Shown: in pieces, positions 48,109 to 52,388 of the stretch | Layout: every line of letters starts with the position of its first letter | How positions within the stretch are numbered: position 1 is the first letter of the stretch | Source: an uncultured Prevotella sp. | GTDB lineage: Bacteria; Bacteroidota; Bacteroidia; Bacteroidales; Bacteroidaceae | Direction: 5' to 3' | Assembly (NCBI GenBank): GCA_946548065.1 | Contig: CAMNPM010000003.1 | Coordinates: 1-64,000 of the forward strand | DNA length: 64,000 nt | Program-made: the position numbers and the translations under genes | Notes under the pieces: generated by a model | The model's input: the letters and a program-made list of their open reading frames with translations, nothing else | Told to the model about the DNA's origin: nothing | Database searches by the model: none

Positions 48109-50148
48109 ATGAAACGAAGTCTGAAAATCATACTCTTATTGGCCGTCATAGCTATAGCTGGCTGCCAGAGCAAGTCTGTCAGCAAGCGCGGCAACGAAGT
48201 ACTCATCGACAGCTTGTCTGCAGTCCTCTACGACCTGATGGGCGACCATCCTGACGAAGCATTGGCACTGGTGGACAGTCTGGAGCGCGAAGGTCTTATA
48301 GACAAGGGATTAGCCAACTGCCGTCGCGCACAAATATATTCGGAGCAATATCAGCCCAGGGTATCCGGTATATATGCCCAGCGGGCACTGAAGGACAAGA
48401 CGCTGAAACGCGGACAGTACTATTTCGCCTACAACTTGCTGATCAACTCTGTCAGCAACGTAGGCAACACTGAACGCGCCCTGCAATATGCCACAGAGGC
48501 ACTGGCTGCAACAAAAGAAGACACTTCAAGCGCCGCCCGCGAATATGCCCCCGACTTTATGACTTGCATCGGCAACAGCCTGATGAAGCTGGACCGGCGG
48601 GAAAAGGCCAACGAACACTACGAAAAGGCCTACCAGATGTATGAGGAGATACTGGCCGGAGCCAAGAGCTTCTCGTGGTTCTATCCGGAATTCATGCTGT
48701 GCGTTGATGCTATCAACGACAACTCCTCCAGAGGCGACATCGAGACATCGCGCCGATGGATACCAAGACTGCAGAGCAGTTACCAGCGAACCATCGGCAC
48801 CAACGACATCCCCAGTCATGTGAAGGACGACTGCACGGCAGATATGGAGATGACGCTCGCCAAGTTCCATCTGCGCGAGGGCAACACCCAGAAGGCAGAA
48901 CAGCACCTACGAGCTTTCAAGCAAACCGACTTTTCCAAGACTTCAATCGGCAAGAAAGACGCTGCCGCCTACTATGAGATTGCCAAACGCTGGAAAGAGC
49001 TGGAGCAATCTGTCGCAAACGTAGACTCGTTCTATATCGACAACCACACCTACCACTCTATGGATTATCTGAAACAGGTTCTGTCCCGCCGGTTTCAGGC
49101 CCAGAAGCAGCTGGGCCATCAGGAGGAAGCGCTGAACACGGCCTCAAAGCTGATTACCCTACTCGACAGTGCCGAAGAGAAAACGGAGAAAGACAATGCT
49201 GTAGAATTCGCTGTCATCTACGAGACCCAAGAGAAGGAGCAGATGATTTCCGACCAGCGCGCCACACTCTCCAAGCAGCGCTGGATAGCCATAGCCGTAG
49301 CACTCCTGCTGGTCACCGTCTTCTTCCTTGTCTACACCCTTTACAGGCGGCAAGTGCATAAGAAGCTGCAGCAGGCCTACAACCAACTGGAGGAAACAAC
49401 CACCGCGAAAGAGCGCATAGAGAGCGAGCTGCGCATTGCCCGCGACATACAGATGTCGATGGTGCCTCATGAGTTCCCCCGTCGCAAGGGTCTGGACCTC
49501 TATGCCCAGATGATGCCCGCCCGCGAGGTGGGAGGCGACTTGTACAGCTACGTGCTGCGAGGAGACGAACTTTACTTCTGCGTCGGCGATGTCTCTGGCA
49601 AAGGTGTGCCGGCCTCACTGTTTATGGCACAAACGGCAAGGCTGTTCCACACGCTGGCAGCCCAGCACTTAATGCCTGCGGACATTGCTTCCAGAATGAA
49701 CGACGAACTGACCATTGGCAACGACCAGGGAATGTTTGTCACGATGTTCATTGGCTCTCTGAGCCTGTCTACAGGCCACCTGAACTACTGCAACTGCGGC
49801 CACAACCCTCCCGTGCTTGGCGGGGACGAGCAACAAGGAACGTTCCTGGAGATGGAGCCCAACGTCCCCATCGGACTGTTCCCCGAAGTACACTTCGTGG
49901 GGCAGCAGATAGACAGCATCAAGGGACGGGCGTTGTTTATCTATACCGACGGACTCAACGAGGCCGAGAACACCGAGCAGCAGCAGTTTGGCGACGACCG
50001 TCTGCTGAAGTGCCTCAGAGAGGTGCGCTTTGCCTCAAGCCGACAGGTGATAGAGTATGTTGTCCAGACTATTGACGCTCACCGCAAGGATGCCCAGCCC
50101 AACGACGACCTCACCATGATGTGTCTGCGTGTAGATGACAGCGATTGA
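48109..50148 (+). CDS. TPR lipoprotein with C-terminal SpoIIE/RsbU phosphatase
   Basis: 679 aa. The N-terminus is a lipoprotein signal (LLAVIAIAGC, lipobox IAGC). TPR-like helices fill about residues 40-370. A membrane helix (WIAIAVALLLVTVFFLVYTLYRR, about 388-410) and a coiled linker lead to a PP2C-type SpoIIE/RsbU phosphatase (about 445-679): RIARDIQMSMVPHEFP, PAREVGGDLYSY (metal Asp), VGDVSGKGVPASLFMA, CGHNPP, IYTDGLNEAEN and PNDDLTMM. TPRs probably sense in the periplasm while the phosphatase acts on a cytoplasmic phosphoprotein, perhaps an anti-sigma antagonist. No STAS or anti-sigma gene is adjacent. Confidence 0.9.
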   Translation: MKRSLKIILLLAVIAIAGCQSKSVSKRGNEVLIDSLSAVLYDLMGDHPDEALALVDSLEREGLIDKGLANCRRAQIYSEQYQPRVSGIYAQRALKDKTLKRGQYYFAYNLLINSVSNVGNTERALQYATEALAATKEDTSSAAREYAPDFMTCIGNSLMKLDRREKANEHYEKAYQMYEEILAGAKSFSWFYPEFMLCVDAINDNSSRGDIETSRRWIPRLQSSYQRTIGTNDIPSHVKDDCTADMEMTLAKFHLREGNTQKAEQHLRAFKQTDFSKTSIGKKDAAAYYEIAKRWKELEQSVANVDSFYIDNHTYHSMDYLKQVLSRRFQAQKQLGHQEEALNTASKLITLLDSAEEKTEKDNAVEFAVIYETQEKEQMISDQRATLSKQRWIAIAVALLLVTVFFLVYTLYRRQVHKKLQQAYNQLEETTTAKERIESELRIARDIQMSMVPHEFPRRKGLDLYAQMMPAREVGGDLYSYVLRGDELYFCVGDVSGKGVPASLFMAQTARLFHTLAAQHLMPADIASRMNDELTIGNDQGMFVTMFIGSLSLSTGHLNYCNCGHNPPVLGGDEQQGTFLEMEPNVPIGLFPEVHFVGQQIDSIKGRALFIYTDGLNEAENTEQQQFGDDRLLKCLREVRFASSRQVIEYVVQTIDAHRKDAQPNDDLTMMCLRVDDSD

Positions 50149-50164: not shown

Positions 50165-50180
50165 TGGCACGTTTTTTGCT
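50165..50180 (+). promoter_or_regulatory. Sigma-54 (-24/-12) promoter of htpG
   Basis: TGGCACG-TTTT-TTGCT is an exact match to the sigma-54 consensus TGGCACG-N4-TTGCW, with GG and GC 10 bp apart. The transcript should start near 50191, leaving about 30 nt before the htpG ATG. I see no TAnnTTTG box between the two genes. Confidence 0.8.
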
Positions 50181-50221
50181 CAACACTGTGCAGATAATGT
50201 CAAATTAGAAATAGAAACAAT

Positions 50222-52282
50222 ATGCAAAAAGGCAACATCGGGGTTACCACAGAGAACATTTTCCCCGTCATCAAAAAGTTTCTCTATTCAGACCATGAGA
50301 TTTTCCTGCGCGAGATGGTGAGCAACGCCGTCGATGCCACACAGAAGCTGAAGACGCTGGCCCAGCAGGGCGACTTCAAGGGCGAGCTGGGCGACCTGAC
50401 CGTCCACGTCAGCCTGGACACGGAGAAAGGCACCATCACCATCTCCGACCGAGGCATCGGCATGACCGAGGAGGAAATCGACAAGTACATCAACCAGATA
50501 GCCTTCTCAGGCGTCAACGACTTCCTGGAGAAGTACAAGGACAATGCCAACAACATCATCGGCCACTTCGGACTGGGCTTCTACTCCTCGTTCATGGTGT
50601 CGAAGAAGGTGGAGATCATCACCCGCTCCTACAAGGAAGGTGCCAAGGCCGTGAAGTGGAGCTGCGACGGCTCGCCGGCCTACGAGATTGACGAGGCTGA
50701 GAAGGACGACCGCGGCAGCGACATCATCCTCTACGTCGACGACGACTGCAAGGAGTTTCTCGAGAAGGAGCGCATACAGCAGCTCCTGAACAAGTACTGC
50801 AAGTTCATGGCCGTGCCTGTGGCCTTCGGCAAGAAGCAGGAGTGGTCGAGCGACGAGAAGAAGATGGTAGACACACAGGAGGACAATATTATTAATAATG
50901 TGGAGCCGCTCTGGACCAAAGCCCCCTCATCGCTCAAGGACGAGGACTACAAGTCGTTCTACCGCACACTCTACCCCATGAGCGACGAACCCATGTTCTG
51001 GATTCACCTCAACGTTGACTATCCCTTCAACCTGACGGGTATCCTCTACTTCCCCCGCATCAAGTCGAACATCGACCTGCAGCGCAACAAGATACAGCTC
51101 TACTGCAACCAGGTCTTCGTCACCGACCAGGTGGAAGGCATCGTGCCTGAGTTCCTCACCCTGCTGCATGGTGTCATCGACTCACCCGACATCCCCCTGA
51201 ACGTCAGCCGCAGCTATCTGCAGAGCGACCGCGAGGTGAAGAAGATATCGACCTATATCACCAAGAAAGTGGCCGACCGCCTGCAGGCCATCTTCAAGGA
51301 GAACCGCAAGGAGTACGAGGAGAAGTGGGACGACCTGAAGCTCTTCATCAACTACGGCATGCTCTCTGAAGAGTCGTTCTACGACCGCGCCAAGGACTTC
51401 GCCCTGTTCAAGGACACCGACGGCAAGCACTTCACCTTCGACGAGTACAAGACCCTCATCGAGTCGGCCCAGAAGGACAAGAACGACCAGCTGGTCTACC
51501 TCTATGCCACCGACCGCGAGGAGCAGTACTCCTACATCCAGGCTGCCAAGGACAAGGGCTACTCAGTGCTGCTGCTCGACGGCCAGCTCGACGTGCCTGC
51601 CATCCAGATGCTGGAGCAGAAGTTCGAGAAGAGCCACTTCACGCGTGTCGATGCCGACATCATCGACCGTCTGATTGTCAAGGACGACCAGCCTAAGTCG
51701 AACCTGTCAGACGACGAGTCTGCCAATCTGTCACAGGTGTTCAAGTCGCAGATGCCCAAGATGGAGAAGACCGAGTTCATGGTCGAGGTGCAGAGCCTGG
51801 GCGAGAGCCAGCGTCCGGTGGTCATCACCCAGAACGAGTGGATGCGCCGCATGAAGGAGATGAGCCGCTTCCAGCAGGGCATGAACTTCTACGCCCAGAT
51901 GCCCGACTCGATGAACCTCGTGCTGAACAGCGACCATCGTCTCGTCAAGGAGATTCTCTCAACTCTCAACTCTCAACTCTCAACTGACCTGAAGCCCATC
52001 GATGCCGAGCTGAAGGGTCAGGAGGCCCGTCTGGCAGCCATCCGCCAGCAGCAGGAGGGCAAGAAGCCCGAGGAGCTGACGCAGGACGACAAGGACATGA
52101 AGGCCGAGTGCGAGAAAGCCATCGAGGAGCAGAAGCAGAAGAAGCAGGATGTGCTCAGCGGCTTTGCAGCCCAGAACGATGTCGTACACCAGCTCATCGA
52201 TCTGGCACTGCTCCAGAACGGCATGCTCAAGGGCGAGGCGCTGGACAAGTTCCTCAAGCGCTCCGTCGACCTCATCAAGTAG
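50222..52282 (+). CDS. htpG: Molecular chaperone HtpG (Hsp90)
   Basis: Cytosolic Hsp90 ATPase, 686 aa. GHKL motifs: EMVSNAVDATQKL (usual SNASDA with Val), ISDRGIGMTEEEI, GHFGLGFYSSFMVS; middle domain LYFPRI and NVSRSYLQSDREVKKI with the catalytic Arg region; C-terminal dimerisation domain ending LIDLALLQNGMLKGEAL. As in other Bacteroidota, there is a charged helical insertion before the last helices. That region starts with STLNSQLSTD, coded by a 7-bp tandem repeat. No C-terminal MEEVD, as expected for bacteria. It is preceded by a sigma-54 promoter and followed by a doubled hairpin terminator. Confidence 0.97.
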   Translation: MQKGNIGVTTENIFPVIKKFLYSDHEIFLREMVSNAVDATQKLKTLAQQGDFKGELGDLTVHVSLDTEKGTITISDRGIGMTEEEIDKYINQIAFSGVNDFLEKYKDNANNIIGHFGLGFYSSFMVSKKVEIITRSYKEGAKAVKWSCDGSPAYEIDEAEKDDRGSDIILYVDDDCKEFLEKERIQQLLNKYCKFMAVPVAFGKKQEWSSDEKKMVDTQEDNIINNVEPLWTKAPSSLKDEDYKSFYRTLYPMSDEPMFWIHLNVDYPFNLTGILYFPRIKSNIDLQRNKIQLYCNQVFVTDQVEGIVPEFLTLLHGVIDSPDIPLNVSRSYLQSDREVKKISTYITKKVADRLQAIFKENRKEYEEKWDDLKLFINYGMLSEESFYDRAKDFALFKDTDGKHFTFDEYKTLIESAQKDKNDQLVYLYATDREEQYSYIQAAKDKGYSVLLLDGQLDVPAIQMLEQKFEKSHFTRVDADIIDRLIVKDDQPKSNLSDDESANLSQVFKSQMPKMEKTEFMVEVQSLGESQRPVVITQNEWMRRMKEMSRFQQGMNFYAQMPDSMNLVLNSDHRLVKEILSTLNSQLSTDLKPIDAELKGQEARLAAIRQQQEGKKPEELTQDDKDMKAECEKAIEEQKQKKQDVLSGFAAQNDVVHQLIDLALLQNGMLKGEALDKFLKRSVDLIK
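51958..51985 (+). repeat. 7-bp tandem repeat CTCAACT x4 inside htpG
   Basis: Four perfect copies of ctcaact in a row, preceded by a further ct. The period is not a multiple of three: loss or gain of one unit would shift the frame about 100 codons before the HtpG end and remove the dimerisation helices. Confidence 0.97.
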
Positions 52283-52302
52283 GCCACAGTAAGCTACATA
52301 TC

Positions 52303-52388
52303 TGAGTTAGCTCGATTCATCGTCCGAGCTAACTCACAACATCAAATGAGTTAGCTCTATCGACAACATGAGCTAACTCATTTTTTTT
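52303..52388 (+). terminator. Tandemly duplicated hairpin terminator after htpG
   Basis: TGAGTTAGCTC...GAGCTAACTCA occurs twice (52303-52336 and 52347-52380), 44 bp apart. Both stems are 11 bp and identical, so four mutually complementary arms allow alternative pairings. Only the second copy is followed by a T-tract (eight T). Confidence 0.9.

Follow-up and report, generated by a model that had tools for sequence, protein, structure and literature searches.

A conserved sigma-54 promoter element upstream of htpG and its probable place in a chaperone regulon of Bacteroidales

Introduction

Which sigma factor transcribes htpG, the gene for the Hsp90 chaperone, in Prevotella, and which regulator acts with it? 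The question arises from a 64-kb stretch of DNA from an uncultured Prevotella sp. (the window, meaning the whole stretch that was analyzed), in which the initial annotation placed an exact sigma-54 promoter in front of htpG and proposed that the gene is controlled by RpoN and an enhancer-binding activator rather than by a heat-shock sigma factor. It further suggested looking for rpoN in the genome, for the motif in relatives, and for additional sites before stress genes. Chaperone control without RpoH or HrcA is at issue here for the Bacteroidales, a dominant group among gut bacteria. In Proteobacteria, a similar set of targets (htpG, dnaK, dnaJ, clp) forms the regulon of RpoH (sigma-32), which belongs to another sigma family, whereas sigma-54 needs an ATP-driven activator. 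In many bacteria, chaperone genes are controlled by HrcA/CIRCE.

A connection between sigma-54 and chaperones has been predicted before. An in silico survey from 2025, based on PSSMs, found GroEL/ES, DnaK, DnaJ, GrpE, and IbpA enriched as predicted sigma-54 targets in Bacteroidota, with COG0326 (Hsp90) enriched among the predicted targets in Bacteroidia (PMC12316311). The same survey describes grpE and groES of B. thetaiotaomicron as dependent on sigma-54, with a Blattabacterium genome paper as its reference. Because Hsp90 is already part of this predicted regulon, the htpG site in the window is an instance of it. The survey was carried out at the level of COGs, whereas here single sites are traced through relatives.

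Results

An exact -24/-12 element precedes htpG

The element upstream of htpG, TGGCACGTTTTTTGC, contains the GG near -24 and the GC near -12 at the fixed spacing of a sigma-54 promoter (TGGCAC-N5-TTGC) with no mismatches, is followed by a T at position 50180, and is separated by 42 nt from the htpG ATG (Table 1). The promoter match reported by the initial annotation is therefore exact. Searching both strands of the entire window gave this one match to TGGCAC-N5-TTGC, compared with 0.21 expected by chance, so that a chance match within the ~60 nt before htpG has p ~1e-4. Judged from its conservation in relatives (below), TGGCACGTTTTTTGC is a real promoter element rather than a chance match. With sigma-54, transcription starts 12 nt past the GC, and the predicted start site and leader in Table 1 follow this rule.

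Table 1. Coordinates of htpG, its predicted promoter features, its upstream neighbor, and the candidate activator
Feature	Position	Strand	Basis and remarks
Sigma-54 core promoter	50165..50179	+	Letters read; TGGCACGTTTTTTGC, comprising -24 element TGGCAC(G), spacer, and -12 element TTTGC
Predicted start-site block TGCAGA	50189..50194	+	Conserved columns at offsets 24-29 from motif start; consensus in relatives GGCARA
Predicted +1	~50191-50192		Offset 26-27; sigma-54 rule placing GC at -13/-12
Predicted short A-rich htpG 5' untranslated leader	50192..50221	+	From predicted +1; A-rich columns in relatives
htpG, Hsp90 chaperone, 686 aa	50222..52282	+	ORF; PF00183 and HATPase matches
TPR/SpoIIE-phosphatase protein	48109..50148	+	PF07228; upstream neighbor ending 16 nt before the motif, outside the conserved unit
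Candidate activator, receiverless enhancer-binding protein, 413 aa	G000:C13:9979-11217 (L101)		Adjoins lptE

The element had also been described as replacing a TAnnTTTG box found before most other genes. No TAnnTTTG box occurs within 300 nt upstream of htpG, and this part of the description stands. The strict box is present at most 200 nt upstream of 9 of the 23 larger ORFs in the window that have an upstream gap, and "most other genes" is consequently an overstatement.

A relative of the TPR/SpoIIE-phosphatase neighbor sits upstream of htpG in only 2/72 loci, and the promoter site thus follows htpG while its surroundings change. Several smaller features of the gene can be recorded here. A short direct repeat of CTCTCAACT-like units at 51955-51990 in the coding sequence is translated as STLNSQLSTD, and just past the gene, at 52295-52380, words of the GAGTTAGCTC type are repeated and inverted, possibly forming a terminator or a small repeat array. 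The C-terminal part of HtpG has two length forms across Bacteroidota: the match in other Bacteroidota often stops near residue 580, in frames of ~610-675 codons compared with 686 aa here.

The element is conserved at htpG in Prevotella and across the order

The source genome (2.28 Mb, 74% complete) has its nearest htpG relatives among rumen Prevotella/Prevotellaceae. A single scan across Prevotella and its relatives yielded 80 htpG loci, 77 of them with sufficient upstream sequence. The comparison suggested by the initial annotation found TGGCAY-N4-TTTGC within 140 nt of the htpG start in 76/77 informative Prevotella-group loci, at distances of 35-103 nt that mostly fall between 38 and 46 nt. 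The site is missing before htpG at L040, and at L069 it survives only in degraded form. One rumen MAG (RUG10994) contributes two different htpG loci, L028 and L034, which could reflect a second copy or a mixed bin.

Aligning these sites on the motif, together with the site in the window, gave 77 rows. TGGCA and TTTGC do not vary in this alignment, partly since the search pattern demands both, and positions that the pattern does not constrain are strongly conserved too, with G at position 7 in 70 rows, T at position 9 in 67, and A at position 16 in 64. Columns 10-60 nt upstream of the motif carry ~0.1 bit each. A second conserved block, GGCARA, coincides with the predicted sigma-54 +1.

A wider sample covered 40 further Bacteroidales families with one genome apiece; one of these genomes belongs to the same family as the window but to a different genus. 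TGGYAY-N5-TTG was found in the 130 nt before htpG in 36/40 families, while none had the reversed pattern there or a match on the opposite strand (0/40 each). Elsewhere in the class, the pattern precedes htpG in 9 of 18 genomes, compared with none for the control, and neither of two genomes sampled beyond the class has it before htpG. Outside Prevotella the -12 element tends to end differently: among the 36 order sites its final base is A in 21, T in 9, and C in just 5, which loosens the classical GC to TTTGA/T. In the order relatives L126-L165, and in L183-L212, sigma-54-like promoters of both htpG and dnaK mostly end in TTTGA or TTTGT. The arrangement at htpG was initially called unusual, which is accurate when measured against E. 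coli; Bacteroidales as a rule have it, and the predicted sigma-54 targets of Bacteroidia already included Hsp90 (PMC12316311). The sigma-54 site at htpG is ordinary for the order and striking against the E. coli picture.

Further chaperone genes carry the element

The sigma-54 pattern gives 15 matches in the source genome and 4 for a reversed control. Most of the 15 lie in coding genes, and the motif by itself is consequently no proof; these intragenic matches were discarded as targets. Clear intergenic matches lie before htpG, dnaK (TGGCACAGGCTTTGC), and a thioredoxin gene (TGGCACGGTATTTGC), which provides the additional sites before stress genes that had been asked for. One further match falls at a gene's end, ahead of an alkaline-phosphatase-like ORF. 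The dnaK, thioredoxin, and phosphatase names were read off the N-terminal sequences rather than obtained by family search.

Across ten Prevotella genomes, with the source genome included, TGGCACG-N3-TTTGC has 15 matches and its control has none. The intergenic matches in the other Prevotella genomes precede htpG (three), clpC-like genes (two), dnaJ/cbpA-like genes (two), and two others. In eight genomes of other genera and families, the element with A, C, or T as its last base is found before dnaK, htpG, and thioredoxin genes, with a small overall excess over control. The theme common to the genes that bear the element is protein folding and repair.

Sigma-54, a candidate activator, and the usual heat-shock regulators

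The source genome encodes RpoN as a 513-aa ORF on contig C12 with PF04552 and PF04963 domains; its N-terminal region has no Pfam match, yet reads like region I. All 148 Bacteroidota genomes sampled contain rpoN, and this set accordingly offers no natural case of rpoN loss. The source genome has one full-size enhancer-binding activator (PF00158, 216.8 bits; 214 bits for its 413-aa ORF), with the remaining PF00158 matches being weak (26-33 bits). At least one strong activator match occurs in 40/40 congeneric genomes, many of which have only one.

The full-size protein has an AAA+ domain from residue 15, with the Walker A sequence GESGVGKE and an intact GxFTGA loop (GSFTGA), followed by a C-terminal Fis-type HTH (HTH_8), and it has no receiver domain. 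GSFTGA in place of GAFTGA is seen in many members of this lptE-linked group. The layout of an AAA+ domain and a Fis-type HTH without an N-terminal receiver is that of PspF-type proteins, but the candidate is linked to lptE rather than to pspA. A close homologue is present in 57/60 Bacteroidales genomes and lptE lies beside the activator gene in 12/12 loci examined, both counts including the source genome. We consider this receiverless protein the probable, though by no means certain, activator at htpG.

RpoH was not detected in any of 30 congeneric genomes above the cut-off of the NCBIfam equivalog TIGR02392 (best score 177 bits, cut-off 323), and the weaker matches to the profile are presumably other sigma-70-type factors. 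HrcA was likewise not found in 30/30 congeneric genomes. The proposal that htpG is under RpoN and an activator rather than a heat-shock sigma factor is thus supported by the genomes sampled.

Upstream regions of htpG

Activator sites were sought as palindromes, 8-mers, and spaced dyads in 64 non-redundant htpG upstream regions, each reaching 250 nt up from the promoter, and no shared palindrome or conserved activator site was accepted in these regions. The top dyads, TTTG-N4-CAAA and CGGA-N14, were read as divergent TAnnTTTG promoters (TGCAAAGGTA) and terminator stems. Shared 8-mers are probably coding sequence of the neighboring gene; neither they nor the dyads were taken as activator sites. 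A leader hairpin picked out by eye (for example ATACCTT...AAGGTAT in L027) was also rejected: its 5' arm is upstream of the predicted +1, so the hairpin would be absent from the RNA. In the window, the space above the promoter is the coding end of the neighboring gene, and an enhancer would therefore lie inside that gene or farther away. Alternatively, an activator at high concentration may need no enhancer.

Discussion

The conservation of the site, the presence of rpoN and an activator, the sites before other chaperone genes, and the failure to find RpoH and HrcA together make it very likely that sigma-54 transcribes htpG within a proteostasis regulon. In the mechanism that we propose, RNA polymerase with sigma-54 (RpoN) would bind the core promoter and wait at -24/-12 as a closed complex, until an AAA+ enhancer-binding activator, likely the receiverless protein next to lptE, hydrolyzes ATP to open the promoter and allow htpG transcription to start at the predicted +1. 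The regulon would comprise htpG, dnaK, and a thioredoxin gene, and in relatives also clpC-like and dnaJ/cbpA-like genes. We infer the dependence on sigma-54, and hold with high confidence to the explanation as a whole, in which a sigma-54 promoter and an AAA+ activator would place htpG in a Bacteroidales proteostasis regulon in genomes where RpoH and HrcA were not found. The inducing signal could be protein-folding or envelope stress, a suggestion that we make tentatively.

Several other readings of the locus were weighed. Most htpG transcription might originate at a sigma-ABfr (housekeeping) or ECF promoter, with the sigma-54 site secondary and used only under special conditions. Genes commonly have several promoters, TAnnTTTG precedes 9/23 genes in the window, and within the openly licensed literature three transcriptome papers on B. 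thetaiotaomicron make no mention of RpoN or sigma-54. We nevertheless regard this reading as quite unlikely, given that the 300 nt before htpG lack a TAnnTTTG box and that, over the 60 nt on either side in relatives, nothing is conspicuous but the sigma-54 motif, the +1 block, and the general A-richness of the leader. It is very improbable that the element is real but bound by another protein, a repressor or an ECF sigma factor, whose site resembles -24/-12. The motif is as fixed and as sharply bounded as any binding site would be, and outside Prevotella its last -12 base is often A or T, unlike the classical GC; however, its order, spacing, and letters fit -24/-12, the +1 block lies where sigma-54 would start, rpoN is universal in the sample, and the relaxed -12 form also precedes dnaK and thioredoxin genes. 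A chance match, retained by common ancestry only, is scarcely credible even though 64 kb should hold ~0.2 random matches, and the conservation test refutes it: random flanks and near-invariant motif columns stand in one alignment, and the 36 families with a site contrast with none for the control.

A fourth alternative keeps the sigma-54 promoter and changes the activator, with a two-component NtrC-type regulator acting at htpG in place of the lptE-linked receiverless protein. One or more additional activators that could fill this role occur in roughly half of the 40 congeneric genomes. In the other congeneric genomes, the source genome (at its 74% completeness) among them, a single activator passes the same score threshold, and the lptE-linked protein is the one found nearly throughout the order genomes. 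An NtrC-type regulator is therefore rather unlikely, yet a more serious contender than the preceding alternatives.

Relative to the earlier survey, the present analysis adds the depth of conservation of a single site, the conserved +1 block, the relaxed -12 base, and a candidate activator. With sigma-54 as the preferred reading, sigma-54 probably runs the chaperone response in Bacteroidales that lack the usual heat-shock regulators, and its role would widen across the order from nitrogen, flagella, and the envelope to core protein folding. A bolder proposal, possible rather than probable, is that RpoN and the near-universal receiverless activator beside lptE take the place of RpoH and HrcA in Bacteroidales as the master stress (heat-shock) regulator, acting through a -12 element of relaxed sequence (TTTGC in Prevotella, TTTGA/T in most of the other families). 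If so, the link to lptE would suggest that the state of the envelope, in particular LPS transport, feeds into chaperone expression.
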